NCBI GenBank assembly: GCA_027604685.1
Contig: JADHYX010000303.1
Span: 2,038 to 27,572 of the forward strand
Reading direction: 5' to 3'
Length of the DNA: 25,535 bases
DNA from: Lobulomyces angularis
Taxonomy: Eukaryota; Chytridiomycota; Chytridiomycetes; Lobulomycetales; Lobulomycetaceae
Shown here: piece by piece, positions 1,898 through 24,797 of the stretch
How positions within the stretch are numbered: the stretch's first letter is position 1
Layout of the letters: every line of letters begins with the position of its first letter
Position numbers and translations under genes: made by a program
The notes under the pieces: model-generated
What the model was told of the DNA's origin: nothing
What the model saw: only the letters and a program-made list of their open reading frames with translations
Database searches by the model: none

Positions 1898-4594
1898 CTA
1901 AGGTGAAAAGGAAGAATTTAAACTTGCTTTGGAAGTTGTGGTACTTTTTGCTAAAGTTTTGTTTAAACTAACAGTGGAAGAAGATGCTTTTACTGAGGTT
2001 GGTGTAGAAATCTTGCTATTTGCAGTACCAATTCTATCATAAATGATTGGATTTTTATTTATCATGTCGTTAAAGGACGACATCCCAGAATTTTTTATCT
2101 TGGGTATCGCACTTTTTTCAATGACGCTGTTAAAAGTTGTGGTGGATTTGACTAGAGTAGAGCTGGATCTGTTTTTTTCAGAGGTGCTACTATTGCTAAT
2201 AGGCTTTACGATTACTTTTTGGTTCAAGCTTTTGGTTGGCAGGACTGGTTTACTCTCTTTGGACACTGGATTTAACACACCTGCTTTCTGGCTGTTGTTA
2301 ACTTCTGGTTTTTTTTCGGCGCTTGAAGAACTAAAGCTGCTACTTCCAGCAGCGGCTGCTTTTTTTGGTACCTTCAGTTGATTAAAGTTTCCTCTATTGT
2401 CAGCGTTACTTTTAATCTTTGACTTTTGAATATTTTCTCTCTTTTGCTTTAACTCCTGTTCTTCCCTTTCCTTTAAAAATAATCTATCTTCTTTTTTTTT
2501 TTCAATGGTGCTTTGTTGTTTTTTATTTTGTTTTATTCTACTGTCTAAACTTTCTTCTTCTTCTTCTCCATCTACGTTCAAATCTACTGTTGCATCTTGG
2601 TATTGTTGGTATTCTGATATAAGGTCACACATATTTGCTGTTTGATTTTTTTTTTTTTAATTTATTTTTAATTTTTCTTAATTTTATTTTTTTTTAATTT
2701 TACATTCGGCTTCGGTAAACTCCATAGGTTCCATTCCTTCACCAGTATACCAATGAACAAAAGCTTTTCTTTTAAACATAGCAGTATATTGGTTATGAAT
2801 TCTCTTGAATAATTCTTGAATTGAAGTTGTGTTTCCAATAAATGTTGCAGATCTCGTCATTCCTTTGGGTGCTATGTCACAAACTGCTGTTTTGATGTTA
2901 TCTATTATTTTTATTAAAAAAATAAAATTAAAATTAAAAAAAAATTAATTAATATATCTTAATTTATTTTAATTTTATTTTTATTTTTAATTTTGTTTTT
3001 TTTTTTCCCATACTTGGTATCCATTCAACAAAATTTGAGCTATTTTTATTTTGAATATTGTACACGGTAGTTTCGACCTCCTTCATTGATAACTTTCCTC
3101 TAAATATCGTTGCAACGGTTAAATACTTTCCATTTCTTGGATCCAGGGCAGCCATTACATTTGTCGGTGAAAATAACTGATTTGTCAAATCCAATACGCT
3201 GTAATTATTGTACATTACGTTACTTCTTGATGTTAAGGGAGCAAAACCTTTTTTATATAAAAAAAAAATATATAAATATATATTTTAAATTTTTTTTTTT
3301 TTTCTTTTTTATATAAACCTAGAACAAAAAAATGTAAACGGGGAAAAGGTACCATATTTAAAGTCAATTTTCTTAAATCTGCATTTAATTGTCCAGGAAA
3401 TCTGAGACAGGTGGTGATACCTGAAACTACATTTGAAATTAAGTGATTTAAATCACCGTAAGTTGGAGTAGAAACTAAAAAAAAAAAAAAAAAGAAAAGA
3501 AATTTAAAAAATTAGAAATTAATTAAAAAAAAAAAAAAACCTTTTAAAGTTCTAAAGCAGATATCATACAAAGCTTCATTGTCAATACAAAAAGTTGAAT
3601 CCACATGTTCAACCAGTTGATTTATACTAAGTGTAGCATTATATGGTTCTACTACTGTGTCTGAAACTTTGGGAGATGGAACAACTGAAAATGTACATAA
3701 CATTCTATGAAAAAAATAAAATAAATTAAGTTATACACTACCAAAAAATTTATTTGATAAAAAAAAAAAAGAAAGTTCAAAAAAAAAAAAATGATAATAA
3801 CCTGTCAGGATATTCCTCACGAATTTTTGAAATTATTAAACTTCCCATGCCTGAACCTGTTCCCCCACCTAAAGAATGGATCATTTGAAATCCTTGCAAA
3901 CAGTCACAATTTTCTGCTTCTTTTCTTGTTATATCTAATACTGTCTCTACTAGTTCCGCACCTTCTGTATAATAACCTATTATAATTTTTTTTTTTTTTT
4001 TTTTAAAAAAAAAGAGAGTCAAAGTTTATTTAAATTTAAAAATATTATTTATTTTATGAAAATTAATGTTTTTAAAGGCACATAATAATATTTACCTTTT
4101 GCCCAGTTATTTCCAGCACCATTTTGACCAAATACTGCATTATCTGGACGAAACAACTTTCCATATGGTCCACCATTGATAGCATCCATTGTTCCAGGTT
4201 CCAAGTCAACAAGAATCCCCCTTGGAACATATTTACCACCCCTTAGTTCGTTAAAATATACCTATTTAAATTTTTATTTATTTTTTTTTTGAAATAAAAA
4301 AAATTTTTTTTTTATTTGCTTCAATACATTTATTCTTTCTAATTGTAAATCTTTTACTGTTCTCTTTGACCAACTACTATTGATCTTTTGGTCAGAATTT
4401 TCTTGGGTAGAGTAATTACCGTTGGGATCAATTCCATGCTCTCCACAAATGACCTCCCAAAATTTTAATCCAACTTTAATTAAAAATAAAAAAAAATAAA
4501 TTTTTTTTTTTATTTTTTTTTTTGATTTAATTTATTTTTTTTTACTCTGATTTCCACATTGTCCAGTTTGTATATGTATAATTTCTCTAGTCAT
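1898..4594 (-). CDS. TUB2: Beta-tubulin with a ~217-residue C-terminal extension
   Basis: Microtubule subunit. Nine exons (high to low): 4594-4546, 4473-4328, 4261-4096, 3976-3802, 3704-3541, 3474-3319, 3247-3014, 2901-2704, 2637-1898; 675 aa against a usual 445-450. All junctions keep frame and restore conserved tubulin sequence (for example [13 protein letters not shown] and FTEAESN). The GTP-binding GGGTGSG lies at 157-163. Canonical numbering is offset by +17 after the H1-S2 loop, because the start is MTREI rather than MREI and 16 residues are inserted before LQLERI. The M-loop ([10 protein letters not shown]) differs from TSRGSQQYRA. Canonical position 198 is Ser (residue 215); 167 and 200 stay Phe. 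After the normal end ([10 protein letters not shown] ... EEEEE, to 458) the frame stays open for 217 residues: a charged coiled-coil-like part (about 472-505), then Ser/Thr/Lys-rich low complexity with two KSTTT repeats and a SAIP motif at 605-608. Probably a divergent, specialised isotype. Confidence 0.93.
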
Positions 4595-4679
4595 AGTATT
4601 AATTTCTTATAAATATATATATATTTTTTTTATTTATTAATTTATTAACTTTTTTTTTTATTTTCTTTGTGAAGATATA

Positions 4680-4999
4680 TTCTAGAAAAAAAAAATTTTT
4701 TAAAATGGTATTCTAGAAAAAAAAAAAAAAGAATTTTTTTTAGTATCAAATATACTATGATAATATAAATTTTTTTTTAAGTTTTAGTAGTTTTTTTTTT
4801 TTTGTATTTTATATAATTCTATCTAATATGGAATATTTTTAAATAACAAAAATTTTAAAATTTCTTAAATGGAGATTATTATTTAAAAATCAAGTTTTGA
4901 TGTGAAGCCGATGAAAAGGGAACAATTTAACCAGCTTAGTTATGTAAGAGAAACTTTGATTGCTTTTATTTTTGTTCTTTATTTAATAATATTCTAGAA
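4680..4999. promoter_or_regulatory. Three TTCTAGAA palindromes (heat-shock-element-like)
   Basis: The 8-bp palindrome TTCTAGAA occurs at 4680-4687, 4711-4718 and 4992-4999 in the divergent tubulin/RNase H2A promoter. It has the TTCnnGAA form of paired heat-shock-factor half-sites. The first two are 31 bp apart. Two more copies sit upstream of the cyclic-nucleotide-binding gene, so promoter copies recur in this window. Function is inferred only from the match to the known half-site pattern. Confidence 0.35.
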
Positions 5000-5035
5000 G
5001 GAAAAAAATTTTTGTAAGATTATTAACCCATTTTG

Positions 5036-5055
5036 AAAACCCTTGTAAAAACCCT
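5036..5055 (+). promoter_or_regulatory. Two AAAACCCT motifs before the RNASEH2A start
   Basis: AAAACCCT is present at 5036-5043 and 5048-5055, ending 24 and 12 bp before the ATG at 5068. The same octamer lies just before the SLD5 and histone deacetylase starts, which suggests a shared core-promoter or 5'-UTR element for genes acting on DNA or chromatin. Confidence 0.35.
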
Positions 5056-5067
5056 ATAAAAAATTAT

Positions 5068-6503
5068 ATGACAAAGAGAACCCAAAAAATTAACCAAAAC
5101 AAGTCGATTAAAATTACAGATGAAGTATCCGACAGTGAAATTGAAAAAGAAATGGTGACTGAGATAGCAAAAAAAGCGGTGAAAACCTTGTCAATGAAGG
5201 AAGAGGACAAATTTCCAGATGTTACTTTAAATTTAGATTTTATTCCAACTATACCCTTAACAAAATCATGGAATTATCATACTCCCGTTCCTTATAGATG
5301 TATAAATGAAGATGTCATTATGGGCATCGACGAAGCTGGAAGAGGTCCAGTTTTAGGTTTCAATTTAAAAAAAAAAAACTTTCACATTTTTTTTAAAATT
5401 TTTATTTTATTTTTCATTTTTCTAGGTCCAATGGTTTATGCAATTTGTTATATACCTCAAAATATGGATAATGAATTAAAATGCATCGGTGTTCAAGATT
5501 CAAAAATATTAAACGATTTTATAAGATGTAGCTTGTTTAAAGGTATGCAACAAAAATATAATGAATATATTGGTTGGGGAGTTTCCGTTCTTTCTCCTCA
5601 AGATATATCAGAGGGTATGCTGCGATGGTAATTTAAAAGAGCAACAAATTTAAAACCGTGGTGCTTTTCTTTTTTTGTTAGTGGAAAATACAATCTCAAT
5701 GCACAAGCACATGATTGTACCATAGATTTAATTAAAAAAGCTTTAAACTCTGGTGTTAAGGTTAAAGAGGTTGTTTTAATAATTTGTTGCACTTTGTTTT
5801 TCTAAACATTTTCCCTTTTTTTTTCTTTTTTTTTTTTTAGATTTATATTGATACAGTTGGACCACCTGATGCTTATCGAATGAAATTAGAAGGCATCTTT
5901 CCAAAGTTAAAAATTGTGGTAGCAAAGAAAGCTGATAGTCTGTACGCAACAGTCAGTGCCGCTTCAATATTTGCGAAAGTTACTAGGTAAAAAAAATTTT
6001 TTGAAATAAAATAAAATTATAAAAAAAAATGAAAATAAAATTATTTAAATTTTTTTTTTTTTTAAAAAAGAGATAAAATTTTGGAAAACTTTAAGTTTAT
6101 TGAAGAAGGTTTAGATTTAAAATTAGGAAAAGATTTTGGAAGTGGATATCCATCAGATCCTAACACTGTACTTTGGTTAAAAAATAATTTGGACTATATA
6201 TTTGGATATCCAAGACTAATTCGGTTCAGCTGGTCCACTTGCGAAAAGATTTTGGAGGAAAAGGCAGCTGGCTGTAAATGGTTTTTATTATTTCTTAATT
6301 TTTAGTAAAATTATTCATTGTGAAGGTTGGATGATGAGAAAGAAAATCATGGAGTTGACATTAGAAAATTTTTAAAAGGAAAAAAGAAACATAGAATGGA
6401 GGATGATGAAGCTATCATTAATGATATGGAAGACTTGAATGGACCAAAAAGGGAGACTTGGATAAGAGATTTAATAGGTTTAAAAATTGTTGAGAGCCTA
6501 TGA
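5068..6503 (+). CDS. RNASEH2A: Ribonuclease H2 catalytic subunit A
   Basis: Nicks DNA at embedded ribonucleotides and degrades RNA:DNA hybrids in the nucleus, normally with the B and C subunits. Six exons: 5068-5356, 5426-5627, 5682-5769, 5841-5986, 6071-6280, 6326-6503; 370 aa, somewhat longer than human RNASEH2A owing to an N-terminal leader of about 80 charged residues. The type 2 RNase H catalytic set is complete: Asp88-Glu89 in GIDEAGRG, Asp197 in YIDTVGPP, Asp225 in KKADSLY. The 28-residue spacing of the last two equals the human 141/169 pair. The GVQDSK motif and the tyrosine of SGYPSDP are also present. The protein ends in a Lys/Asp-rich segment. Intron 1 (69 nt, a multiple of three, no stop) interrupts directly after the DEAGRG box. 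The exon 3 donor GTTGTT at 5770 is weak; an alternative GT three bases later would add one valine. The gene is convergent with the TMEM198-like gene, 138 bp apart. Confidence 0.93.
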
Positions 6504-13282: not shown

Positions 13283-15449
13283 TTATAATTTGGCTTTTGG
13301 AGTCAATTCAGGTATGGTTTTTTCAAATACTACTTTCATTTCGTTTAATGCTTCATGAAAGTAGTGTCTAAAAGTCTCGTTTCCCAATTTCAGACTGACC
13401 AAATTAAAATGTAAACTGTTATTTTTAACCATGTAAGCACATCCTAAAAAAAATTGATAAATAAATAAAAAAGAAGAAAAGGAAGAGTTACCCCATCCAT
13501 CAGGAACAACTTCACCCCAACCATAACCTTCGTAATATTCTGAAGTTATCTGACTTGTACTTAAATTCCAATGGCTACTTCTGGAGTATGCAGGATCAGC
13601 AAAAATTTCTGGTTTGGGCTCATCTGGTTTTAATAACAACCTCAACCCTAACAAATGTCTATCGACACCTTTGCCATCAACCGCCTTCCTCATATAAGTT
13701 GATTGGGAAGCAATCGCCTTTCTACCTAACTGACCTTTTTCAACATCCTAAATTATTTAAAAAAAATTATTTTTTGATCATTTCCCAGTCAATACATACT
13801 GATAAATGAGGATTTTCCATTGCTTTGACCCAAGCGACACTTTCATTACTGACGCTTCTGCATGTTTCGGTTCTGCCAAAGAGGTATTTTTTGGTTTGTG
13901 CACTTTCATAAGTTGGATCACATTTTCCCATTAGCTTGAAATACGCAAGTTGGATTGCCATTTGGGCATAGGCATCCGGAGAAACCCCAAATTTCTTTAT
14001 AAGATTTTTTCCGTAGCCTTCAAATACACAAACTTTCAAGTCATGCTTGTCAATTAATTCGTTGAAGTTTTTTTTGGCTACAGCGATTTGTGTTTTTTGA
14101 TTTGTTAAATCAAATTTTAATTTTTCAGGAAGAGGTAAGGTAATTGGTGCATGAGAATTTCCGTCATCAAATTTTCCAGTAAAAATGCTTTATATAGTAA
14201 TCATTAAAATTAAATAAATTAACTATCAGATGCATACTTATGTAAAAATGTGTTGCACATTCTATCTGGGGGTGTAGCATCCATTCTGCTATGTTCTCCA
14301 TTAAATCCAGCCTTTCCATTGTCAAAAATGATAAACTGCAGTGACTTGTCAAAAAATCTATTCTTTCCATCACCATGCCAGCAAGCCCTACTTAATTCTT
14401 CTCTGGTAACAGGTTTTGTATCATCCAAACATATGGCAAAAACACTATTTTCAATAATTTCTAAACTTTTCTTATTTAATGGGTTTAATAGTAATTCATC
14501 TCTAGTAGCAGTCCAAATATCTCTGTTTTCAGTAGTAAGAATTCCTAGAGGAGTGTGTTCCTCGGTGCCAGCCATTTCGTAAATTTTTTTAAACTGGCTA
14601 TTATGGTCATTAAGAGAAAAAAATTTTAAAAGGAATATAATACCTCTCCAATTCATTCGTGCTCAAAATTCTACCATTTACTTTTAAGTCTATGGTAAAA
14701 AATTGATTTTTTCTTATCACTACCGCATGATTATTTTGATTTGGATCTGCCAAATGAGTAATGTCACTAGGAATCTTTGGAATTCTGGTACTATTAAACA
14801 TGTATCTGTATTGGTCCATACATAGCGGTCCTGCTTTTGTAGAATCTGGAATGAGCGTTTCGCTGATTTTTACATAAGTATTTTCATCACAATTTTAGGC
14901 TTACTTAATAAGTTCTTCACGAAATTGCATCGCACCTCTTGCAATACTGGCTGCTCTAGCACTAGGATCTTTTCTAAATTTATCATCCTTAAAAACCCAA
15001 AAATAAGAGACCCAAACTACAATGGGATCCCGATAACCCATATAAGCATAATCATTCCACCAATCAATTAGCCAGCTACTATTTGAATATTTATTTTGTC
15101 TATCTTTTAACAACTTTTGCAACTCTTCACCTTTCCCACCTGGTTTTAAAAAATCTTTAACTGCCATTAACGACCTTTCATATTGCTGATTCGTTAATAT
15201 AGGTTCCAATGATTTTAAATAAGTTTCACAAGTTTCTTTCAGTTCAGGAACCTAAAACAATGTTATTTTTTTGAACCTAACTTAAAAAACATAGAGAAAT
15301 TTTACCGGAAGTCTAGGAAGAGTTGATTGATGTGAATATGTAATTTTAGTAGAAAATTTGCTCATCGATTTAGATAATGTGTTACTTCTTTGCAAAGTAG
15401 AATTTGTTAAGATTTTGTTACTTCCAGAAATAAATCGCTTGAAGTTCAT
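13283..15449 (-). CDS. CAT2: Carnitine O-acetyltransferase with mitochondrial and peroxisomal signals
   Basis: Exchanges acetyl groups between CoA and carnitine, so that acetyl units can leave peroxisomes and enter mitochondria. Seven exons (high to low): 15449-15306, 15251-14905, 14862-14644, 14597-14238, 14187-13800, 13747-13492, 13443-13283; 624 aa, the usual length, all frames joining. The choline/carnitine acyltransferase fold is clear: LPRLPVPELKETCETYLKSL, CMDQYRYMFNSTRIP, ILTTENRDIW, and the catalytic His339 in GEHSRMDATP (human CRAT His343). The N-terminus is rich in Ser, Thr, Lys and Arg and lacks acidic residues, like a mitochondrial presequence; Met29 could start a shorter form. 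The C-terminus is AKL, a type 1 peroxisomal signal, as in yeast Cat2. Introns are very short (42-54 nt); the last, 48 nt, is a multiple of three without a stop. An in-frame stop upstream makes 15449 the first possible ATG. Confidence 0.92.
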
Positions 15450-21022: not shown

Positions 21023-24000
21023 ATGACTAAAAGGTTTATAGTATCTGCACTCTACGACTACGTTGGGAATGAAGAACGCTCCCTTTCCTTCAAGCGGGGT
21101 GATATCATTAGAGTAATAACACAACTTGAATCGGGTTGGTGGGATGGTGTTTGTAAAGGCCAGCGAGGTAATTAAACTTTTTCTTTTTAATTTGTACTTC
21201 AAGTTTTTATTTCGTTCTTTATGGTGTTTTTCTAAACTTCACCCAATTTACTTCAATCAATTTATCGTTTTAGCTCTCTCACTTTTTTTTTTACTTAGTT
21301 TTACTCTAATCAAATCCAAAAGTTATAGTATAATTCTAATTCTTTTTTATTTTTAGGTTGGTTTCCCTCTAATTATGTAACTAGTACAGAAATTGCCACT
21401 GACATAAAAGTAAGTAAAATGAAAAGTTTTTCCGTTCTTTTTACGAACTCGATTTATTTTTTGAAGATATCATCGGTGGAACTGCATTCAAATAGCAACA
21501 GCAGTGCAACTTTAATATCTGCTGTAGAATCTAATGTTTCAAATAATCTAATATCTCCATTTTCTGATCGGTCATATCAGCAGTATCAAAAGCAATTAAA
21601 CGAAGGTACTCCAACAGACACGTTAGATGATATATCCGCTGTCCATCAAAGTTCATTAACGAAAGATTCATTAAAAAGTTCTTCTCTTGATAAATATTCG
21701 CTCTCCGTGAGTTCTCCTAGTCAAACAATTACCCCCATGTCTGCAATATCAGAGCAAAGTTTTGGCATGTACTCAATGAAATCACCTTCCTCCGCAGCAA
21801 TATTAAAATTTGATCAAGTAAAAATTACTATTCTAAACTTAACTTATGTATTTTTTTGATTAAGAATTTACCACCTAATTGGGCAAAAAAGCAAAATTCT
21901 GATGGAAAGATATACTATCAAAATTTACTTACTGAACATATTTCTTGGTCTTTGGATAATGTACATATGGAAAATGGGGAGTTGGTATTCAACAAATTAA
22001 ACATTATTTCTTCTTAAAAATTTTATACAATTTAGATGAAGAATAACTCTTCACAGCCAAATCAAACTTCTCAAAATATAGAGAGAGATGAGGATGTTGT
22101 ATCTAATAAATGGAATTGGAATGCTTTATCAGATGACATTGTAAATGCTGTACATAACTTAAATTTATCAGCTAAATCAAGTCGAAAAGAAAACTTTGTT
22201 TCTCAGTCTTTACAAATTATGGAATCTATTAAGATAATGCTCTATGCCAGTGGCACTTTTCAGAAAGATACACCTCTAGTCTCATCCCATAAAATTCTTA
22301 AAACAAATCATAAACACATAATGAATGCCTTGACAAAATTAGGTTTATCGGCCAAACTGGCTTCTAATACACCTTGTCCAGTGGATGCAGTGCAACAAAT
22401 GCAGCAGGCCTGCCATGATGTTTTACTTGCAGTGAGGCATTTTGTAAGTGCTGCTCTTGAGGCTGAGATATCTATAAATAATTTGGATGGAGTAGATCTT
22501 TCGGAAGTTACTAATTGGCAAAGTGATATGAGCAGCTATACATCTTTAATGGAAACAAATCAAGACGTAAGTTCGTTTGTGGAACTGCAGCAAAAGCAAG
22601 CTGATGCGGATTTGATTGCGTTATATGAGAAGCACACCAAATCAGTTGTTAAAACAATTTCTCTCCTAGTGCGTTTAATTAGGTCGAACCAATGTAGTTC
22701 CAGCTCATTGATTGCTGAAGTTCGTTCTGTTGTAACGGATGTAGGAAATTTTTTGGCGCTGGTTGATGAAATTCCAGTTGACACATTGTCGCATGAAGTC
22801 ACAGTTGATTTTAAGGTAACAAGACTTGCACTGTACAATAGTATCTCTGGGCTAGTTATGGCTACTCAAACTGCAACAAGTCCACTATCACCTAGCAACG
22901 CCTTAGAACAAGTTGTCTTAAGTACTGGATTGGTGGAAAAAGCTGTCAAGGATTTATTTGCATCAACGAAGTTTATGATAGAAGAAAAAGAGGAGCTAGA
23001 TCAACTTTCTGATATTAAAAAAGAAGAAGCTGCGTTAATTAAACCAAGAAGAACGGTATCTCTATCATCCGCCATTCCGCCAGTAATAACTCCTATGGCA
23101 GAAGGGGAGTTAAACAACAACACAAATAAGGATCTAAAATTAGGACATGGCCAACCGCAATCAGCAGGTCCTTTAACTACCCCAAACGGTATTTTTGGTG
23201 ATGGAGAAACTTCCTCCCCTGTAAGAAGCAAGATTAAAAAGTTCTTTGGTGAAGTTCCTGATAGTCCTATTTCGGTGGGAGTAGTTAAACAAGAAACAGT
23301 GCCACCCTTTCTCCAATATGATTATGGACCCAACGATATAATTTTCAATATGGAAGGTAAAATTAAAGGCGGAACTTTAGAAGGATTGATTGAAAGGTTG
23401 ACACCGCACGATTCCAATGGTAAGGCTAATCTCCTTTGTCAATATTTTTAACTTTTAATTTAGATTCAAACTATACTACCACATTTTTACTGACTTACCG
23501 GTCCTTCACATCCTCAACCGAATTTTTTGAATTGCTAAAAAAGAGGTATTTGATTACTCCAGATCCTTTTTTGAGTAAAGATGAACTGCAGCAGTGGGTT
23601 GAAAAAAAACAAACTCCTATTAGAATGCGGTAGATCTATACACAAATTTAAAATAATTTATTCTTTAATGTTTTAGAGTTTTTAATATCTTGAAATCTTG
23701 GATTGAAAATTACAGCGAAAGCACCCCGGAGGATTTAAAAGTTTTATCAGAAATGAAAGACTTTGCAACGGTGATGTCGCATTCCATCCAATTTGCTTCC
23801 CAGCAATTAGTGAAGTTGGTAGAAAAAAGGATACTGTCTTTAGAGACGAACACCCCTTCCAAAAAAATAATAAAAACCTCAAATATTTGCCCATTACCAA
23901 TTTTACCAAAAAATTTAAAAAAAATAAAATTTCTTGACATAGATCCATTAGAAATAGCTCGCCAATTAACAATACTGGAGAGTAAAACTTTTAACAAGAT

Positions 24001-24797
24001 CCAGCCAATGGAGTTTTTGAAGAAGGCTTGGAGTGAAAAGGAAAGCGATAACAGTAAAAATGTTAAAGAGGTTGCAAAGATGTCAAACTTGGTAGTTACA
24101 CTAAAAACTATTTTAATTTATTTCATGTATTCTGTTTTAGATAACAAGTTGGGTGGCGGAAACCATTTTATTGCAATCAGATTTAAAGCAAAGAGCAGCC
24201 CATATTAAGCATTTTATTTTAATAGCGGAGGTAAAAAAAAATTATATAATCTGTTATATAAAATTTAACATTTGTTAGAAATGCCGTACTCTGAATAATT
24301 TTAATACCTTAATGTCCATAATGGCAGGATTAAATTCCGCGCCAATACATAGGTTAAAAAGAACCTTTGAATTATTGTCATCGAAAACTCAAACATCACT
24401 TGATCAATTACAAAGTTTGATGTCGACTACAAAAAATTATTCGGTTTATAGAGAAGCACTACATGCTTCTTATCCACCATCCATGCCGTTTTTGGGGTTA
24501 TATTTGACAGATTTAACTTTCATAGAGGATGGAAATCCAGATTTACTAAAACCAGACAATAGACTAATAAATTTTAGCAAGAGAAGTAAAACTGCCGAAG
24601 TGATTATGGAAATTCAGCAGTATCAGCGCACACACTACAATCTAACCCCGGTTGTTGAAATTCAAAATTTCATCATAAACTGTTTGACAGAAAGTTTGGA
24701 TGAAAATAAAATCTACGATTTAAGTTTGCAACTGGAACCAAGAGAAAGGGAGGATGAAAAAATAGCAAGATTGTTGAGTGAAAGTGGATTTCTGTAA
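21023..24797 (+). CDS. CDC25: Cdc25-type Ras guanine-nucleotide exchange factor with SH3 and WW domains
   Basis: Activates Ras by driving GDP release at the membrane. Nine exons: 21023-21167, 21357-21409, 21467-21817, 21865-21984, 22036-23419, 23464-23629, 23677-24091, 24141-24230, 24279-24797; 1080 aa. Domains in order: SH3 (about 4-60: ALYDY, LSFKRGDIIRVI, SGWWDG, GWFPSNYV); a Ser-rich linker; WW (about 184-215: LPPNWAKK ... IYYQN ... ISW, lacking the usual final Pro); a long helical middle region with another Ser/Pro-rich linker; the Ras exchange motif (about 660-760: GGTLEGLIERLTP, TTTFLLTYRSFTSSTEFFEL, RVFNILKSW); and the Cdc25 catalytic domain (about 827-1075: DPLEIARQLT, SNLITSWVAETIL, FNTLMSIMAGLNSAPIHRLK, PFLGLYLTDLTFIEDGNP, NFSKR). 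The catalytic core looks intact. Exons 3 and 4 use AAG-type acceptors, placed because they restore the SH3 linker frame and the WW start. Confidence 0.93.

Follow-up and report, generated by a model that had tools for sequence, protein, structure and literature searches.

A divergent beta-tubulin gene of the chytrid Lobulomyces angularis with a long, basic C-terminal extension

Tubulin is among the most constrained of eukaryotic proteins, and the C-terminal tails of tubulins, which are usually short and acidic, are a main site of the 'tubulin code'. The locus considered here raises the question of whether a beta-tubulin gene can encode, beyond its acidic stretch, a long basic extension, and if so, what kind of tubulin carries it and what such an extension might do. 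The gene is found in a stretch of 25,535 nucleotides (referred to below as the window), which corresponds to G000:C303:2038-27572 of an assembly of 20.8 Mb in 533 contigs. A sequence-only reading of the window had proposed that the frame of the gene continues past EEEEE for 217 residues to a TAG codon, that the segment concerned occupies positions 1898-2551, and that the junction is located inside one exon whose upstream splice restores conserved sequence. The first of these observations is borne out by exon-like GC content, by shuffled sequences and by a second record, all described below; the placement is exact to the base, the stop codon included; and both statements regarding the junction are confirmed in our splice model (Table 1).

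Table 1. Features of the beta-tubulin gene and of its predicted protein in the window
Feature	Position in window	Strand	Residues	Basis or remarks
Divergent beta-tubulin gene	1898..4594	-	675 aa	9 exons; splice model and matches to Clydaea vesicula and to structures
Exons of the gene	4594-4546, 4473-4328, 4261-4096, 3976-3802, 3704-3541, 3474-3319, 3247-3014, 2901-2704, 2637-1898	-		
MTREI start	4580..4594	-		One residue between Met and REI; MREI in 15 of 17 other aligned proteins
16-residue insertion	4355..4402	-	41-56	19-protein alignment; window protein and P0007 only
Last exon	1898..2637	-		Core end, acidic stretch, tail and stop in a single frame
EEEEE	2552..2566	-	454-458	Acidic stretch preceding the extension
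C-terminal extension (tail)	1901..2551	-	459-675	217 residues, pI 10.3; TAG stop at 1900-1898
Predicted charged helix	2390..2569	-	453-512	AlphaFold models
Predicted mostly disordered basic part	1901..2389	-	513-675	Low pLDDT and composition
SAIP, SxIP-like	2102..2113	-	605-608	Basic, Ser/Thr-rich surroundings; also in P0007

All eight introns of the gene are of the GT...AG type and 66-119 bases long, with a GC content of 4.2-13.4% each (8.2% pooled), and splicing out the last of them restores conserved beta-tubulin sequence. Judged by its core, for which we take residues 1-458 (through EEEEE) as distinct from the tail (459-675), the window protein is a beta-tubulin: its best structure match is to solved beta-tubulin chains (residues 3-459, E 9.5e-232), it contains the GTPase signature GGGTGSG, and its core could be aligned with 18 beta-tubulins. 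However, where a beta-tubulin would end in a short acidic C-terminus of about 20 residues, the acidic stretch, which is a possible glutamylation site, is followed by 217 more residues. That these residues are coding is near certain. The tail, with a GC content of 34.7%, is similar to the exons of the same gene (30.6-40.4%), whereas the 3' flank (1493-1897) has a GC content of only 9.1% and the 5' flank (4595-4989) one of 14.9%; none of the ten measured 60-base blocks of the tail fell below 22%. As the tail has a GC content of 34.7% rather than 9.1%, it has been under coding constraint for a long time or was derived from coding sequence. In addition, when the tail was shuffled 2000 times with its dinucleotides preserved, no shuffled sequence was open over 217 codons (median 11, maximum 205), and the other two forward frames contain 17 and 25 stops. 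The possibility that a separate downstream gene is read into the tubulin was rejected, as the junction lies within one exon and the first Met of the tail is found 157 residues into it. Antisense to the tail there is an open frame of 112 codons (window 2043-2381, + strand), which nothing marks as a gene.

With regard to the surroundings of this gene, the tubulin gene starts about 400 bases away from an RNase HII-type match (window 4990-5631, + strand; E 9.7e-13) of opposite orientation. Elsewhere in the window, the C-terminal part of a carnitine O-acyltransferase was observed at 13283-13747 on the - strand (Pfam E 2.5e-31), and the region 22036-24797 on the + strand contains open frames matching DUF7783 (22036-23451) and RasGEF (24279-24797), which are probably pieces of a single gene for a Ras exchange factor.

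The second record of this gene comes from Clydaea vesicula, which is also a lobulomycetalean chytrid. The protein HK099_000302 of this species (P0007 in our set; 668 aa) is 98% identical to the window protein over its whole length, and the two represent the same gene, with identical core residues, the same insertion near the N-terminus and the same tail. Its gene model leaves out seven residues (LHFFVLG), and it is named Tubulin beta-1 chain in UniRef, the names being silent on the tail. The two tails are of equal length (217 residues) and differ by five substitutions (A524T, S545N, S577G, N636D and A647S, window residue first), with no indel and no stop over 651 bases, whereas the 451 core residues common to both models show no difference. 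This contrast (5/217 versus 0/451; Fisher p 0.0035) and the lack of indels indicate a tail that diverges more rapidly than the core while its frame is kept, and part of it may therefore be under little constraint. As only one match each was detected in the window genome for the DNA of the last exon and for the tail protein, among the best candidates scored, the window gene and P0007 are probably not two haplotypes of one assembly, and a haplotype of the window genome was dropped as the source of P0007. Duplication from a different gene of the window genome was likewise set aside as the origin of the tail, its own locus being the sole match among the best candidates scored.

The sequence-only reading had described the extension as a domain consisting of a charged, coiled-coil-like segment and a basic Ser/Lys/Thr-rich region. 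The two parts and their order are in agreement with the AlphaFold models, but the term domain is too strong, because disorder is predicted for the greater part of the final 163 residues. When the exon alone was modeled from its single sequence, a helix was obtained at residues 453-512 (pLDDT 94-97 at 464-503), followed by low-confidence coil in which only a short helix at 618-624 is predicted. A model of P0007 together with 25 relatives placed the helix at its residues 450-503 (457-510 of the window protein), with block pLDDT values of 58-89 that were lower at the ends and of 23-30 thereafter; the core of this model is poor (mean pLDDT 47 from 26 sequences, with the seven residues missing) and it was used for the tail only. 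The tail is thus predicted to be a helix followed by a mostly disordered basic arm, and its helix could either exist singly or form part of a weak coiled coil. Of its 60 residues 53% are charged and 10 are hydrophobic. It shows no excess of i/i+3 and i/i+4 salt bridges, the 13 attractive pairs (versus 15 repulsive) being equaled or exceeded in 4430 of 5000 shuffles, and this pattern therefore lends no support to a single stable alpha-helix. The 163 residues that follow (513-675) include 24 K+R, 7 D+E and 51 S+T, and the tail as a whole has a computed net charge of about +23 and a pI of 10.3.

The homology search with the tail alone that had been recommended was answered in part: in a search restricted to the tail region, P0007 was the sole return among 4548 candidates, all of which had lengths between 0.55 and 1.75 times that of the 668-aa query; a short, stand-alone relative would be missed by this filter. 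In the Pfam search no family matched the tail above cut-off (the best was DUF5677, E 6.3), and the frame of the exon had no NCBIfam match above cut-off. A Pfam match of the exon to HYLS1_C was discarded, as it reached an E-value of 0.019 and 16.2 bits against a cut-off of 27 and covers the end of the tubulin together with the start of the helix. Among 140 fetched proteins bearing the motif EYQQ(Y/C/H/F)Q, there were 11 with more than 45 residues after the motif, one of them P0007. Four of the others (P0029, P0039, P0044, and P0048) run on into tubulin sequence again, four (P0087, P0090, P0108, and P0120) contain another Pfam family, and P0096 and P0102 possess a long C-terminal part unlike the window tail. 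When the first 110 residues after the motif were compared by eye, no tail resembling that of the window protein was found in this set besides P0007. No description of a tail of this kind on a beta-tubulin from a chytrid was recognized in the literature as represented by titles and the beginnings of abstracts, subscription papers being mostly outside this scope. The passage naming Clydaea vesicula in an article on TPPP (PMC10459994) is a row in a table of similar proteins, and the tubulin passages of an article on the fungal flagellum (PMC13358043) are general in nature.

The sequence-only reading was also worded as though this were the beta-tubulin of the organism, but the gene is not the only one. 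The search for other tubulin genes that it suggested led to 15 matches on seven contigs (C5 among them), and comparison with the window protein identified canonical beta-tubulins on C42 (L003) and C64 (L004) and an alpha-tubulin on C183; in our own judgement, the match on C3 looks like a gamma-tubulin and that on C100 like an epsilon-tubulin. The two canonical genes differ in their DNA and encode identical proteins of 449 residues, which contain the axoneme motif EGEFDEE and end in a short acidic tail (TAEEEGEFDEEEGEAEAQEAA). The window gene thus represents a third, divergent isotype, whose core is identical to the canonical betas of the same genome at 328 of 428 aligned positions and which shares one of its eight introns with them (window codon 179, canonical codon 162, phase 2), no other shared intron having been found. 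The coexistence of two canonical, short-tailed betas suggests that the bulk microtubules probably do not have the arm on every dimer, and as the proteins encoded by these two genes are identical, the window copy would be free to specialize. In addition to the tail, the window protein differs from other beta-tubulins in a 16-residue insertion, which among the proteins compared is confined, like the long tail, to the window protein and P0007. Its site is what we take to be the H1-S2 loop, a loop that is present on the luminal side of the microtubule. The protein also has an extra residue at its start (the comparison in Table 1 is with the 17 aligned proteins other than the window protein and P0007).

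A start of the form M-x-REI was found in 12 of 151 fetched proteins, nine of which are from chytrids. It is not unique to a chytrid class, because two records from Wallemia (P0016 and P0017, MGREI) and one from Tigriopus (P0034, MPREI) share the extra residue; these three are long and have two GTPase signatures each. The chytrid betas with an M-P-REI start (P0086, P0121-P0126, and P0148) are from Spizellomyces, Thoreauomyces, Geranomyces, Powellomyces, and Phlyctochytrium, and none of them contains EGEF. Their extra residue alters the MREI start, which is used in the autoregulation of tubulin mRNA. To what extent the window protein is related to this class was examined by means of class-specific residues and a phylogenetic tree. 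The window protein resembles the class at nine positions (shared with at least five of seven class rows and at most two of 15 other betas), of which one is the extra start position. However, a control yielded an equal number of positions that resemble the other betas (at least 11 of 15, with at most one of the seven class rows), while 61 positions were like neither, and hence these residues were dropped as proof of kinship. In the tree based upon 24 rows (the window pair, seven class rows and 15 others), a split uniting the window protein, P0007 and the seven class rows against the 15 others had support values of 94/92, which is just below the mark of 95. The branch of the window pair is long (0.42, where the median for end branches is 0.062), and the path distance from the window protein is 0.60 to P0086 and 0.61 to the canonical betas of its own genome. 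Membership of the window protein in the chytrid M-x-REI class is thus possible. The control weakened the case for this kinship but left the odds of our main explanation, given below, as they were, since that explanation does not rely on it.

In terms of axonemal characteristics, the motif EGEF of axonemal beta-tubulins (PMC6479064) is absent from the window protein, whereas both canonical betas of the same genome have it. Similarly, in place of the outer-arm dynein site (S/T)G(G/A), located at 55-57 in axonemal beta-tubulin (PMC3382179), the window protein reads RGG (within NELRGGK) and its own canonical betas TGG. The same article on Tetrahymena beta-tubulins describes two, BLT1 and BLT4, that lack both EGEF and (S/T)G(G/A); as GFP fusions, they entered cortical bundles and nuclear arrays but could not be detected in cilia (PMC3382179). 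As the window protein also lacks EGEF and the dynein-arm site, we infer by analogy with BLT1/BLT4 that it is a non-axonemal isotype. The loss of the dynein-arm site is not a property of the chytrid class, since six of its eight M-P-REI betas retain SGG.

Taken together, our best explanation, to which we give about even credence, is that the window gene encodes a functional, non-axonemal beta isotype whose arm binds acidic tubulin tails or recruits partners, thereby stabilizing or bundling chosen arrays. According to this explanation, the gene would have gained, in this lineage, the C-terminal arm (a charged helix of about 60 residues and about 163 mostly disordered basic residues) and the 16-residue loop insertion. 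The gene would be expressed, and dimers containing this isotype would most likely be built, together with canonical dimers, into selected arrays of the cytoplasm or the spindle, where the helix would lift the basic part off the lattice. The basic part could then bind acidic tails, either on its own microtubule or on a neighboring one, and this electrostatic mechanism is the simplest, because a basic tail (pI 10.3, about +23) would sit on a surface lined with acidic ones. As a second and weaker possibility, the arm may instead recruit partners such as EB1. Either binding or recruitment would stabilize or bundle the array. The suggestion of a built-in MAP fits the composition of the tail, which might fold back on acidic tails or bundle microtubules. 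In its strongest form, a natural fusion of tubulin and MAP by which selected microtubules acquire a stoichiometric modification as they assemble instead of through the exchange of separate MAPs, this suggestion is less likely than not; if it were true, the microtubule would be marked on its luminal face by the loop insertion and on its outer face by the arm.

The same observations can be read differently. The window protein could be an expressed minor isotype whose tail is a nearly neutral by-product of a lost stop codon, with no specific function. The low-complexity, Ser/Thr/Lys-rich nature of the tail, the search that returned P0007 as its only homolog and the presence of five changes in the tail versus none in the core are all in accordance with this, but a tail that drifts in this manner is difficult to reconcile with its GC content (34.7%, versus 9.1% in the 3' flank), with the absence of indels and stops across the 651 bases of two records, or with the confidently predicted helix at its start, and we consider this explanation rather unlikely. 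The other alternative that assigns a role to the tail concerns its SAIP motif. SxIP is the pattern of EB1-binding proteins, and the C-terminal part of EB1 is the part that binds it; the tail might thus be an arm that acts at plus ends or in the recruitment of partners, so that dimers deliver or hold EB1 and other partners. The motif lies within a basic, Ser/Thr-rich, disordered stretch and is conserved in P0007, and the genome contains a homolog of the CH region with which EB1 begins (G000:C51:29268-29657, E 1.7e-21, 39% identity, with a segment of Mal3 as the query; CH domains, PF00307, have 17 matches in this genome). Against it, an SxIP turned up in 606 of 5000 shuffled tails, so that SAIP is not rarer than chance and provides a lead only; the Pfam search found no genome candidate for the EB1 C-terminal family (PF03271), an empty result which does not prove absence; and as EB1 binds the lattice already, the gain from such an arm is not obvious. 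This proposal is therefore best regarded as improbable.

That the extension is an artefact, either of assembly or of a wrong gene model, and that the true protein ends or splices past the acidic stretch, was also considered, since several other long beta-tubulin records are tandem or fused gene models. However, the same frame is found in a second record that bears its own substitutions, the junction falls within one exon of exon-like GC content throughout, and the ten blocks of the tail remain at or above 22% GC, in contrast to the 4.2-13.4% of the introns, all of which makes an artefact highly improbable. The functional, non-axonemal isotype thus remains our preferred explanation. By attaching a long, basic and partly helical arm directly to the lattice, such an isotype would naturally test how much mass and positive charge the surface of a microtubule tolerates, and whether the function of a MAP can be built into tubulin itself. 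With divergent second betas in other chytrids as well, the canonical (EGEF-containing) and the non-axonemal betas may divide the work of the flagellum and the cell body between them.

Of the known systems with which this protein can be compared, proteins of the tau/MAP type have basic, disordered microtubule-binding regions. The tail resembles these in being basic, Ser/Thr-rich and predicted to be disordered, and in that it would be expected to bind acidic tubulin tails; unlike them, it is covalently a part of tubulin and hence could not leave the lattice. No recognizable microtubule-binding repeat or domain was found in it by Pfam, and because no family was above cut-off, the tail is, on present evidence, not a member of a MAP family. 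The M-P-REI betas of chytrids share with the window protein the extra residue after the first Met and the absence of EGEF. In contrast to it, they lack the 16-residue insertion, and the seven compared end 16-37 residues past EYQQYQ(D/E)A, the longest of these C-termini being that of Spizellomyces, with a short end stretch containing basic residues. Another parallel is provided by BLT1 and BLT4 of Tetrahymena thermophila, which are likewise divergent accessory betas alongside canonical ones, with both axonemal motifs absent and with non-canonical C-termini (PMC3382179). As BLT1 has 471 residues in total and BLT4 458, their tails are short, unlike that of the window protein, and they lack the EEEE glutamylation motif, whereas the window protein retains EEEEE (PMC3382179). 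The window protein is a divergent isotype of beta-tubulin, set apart by its unusual tail.
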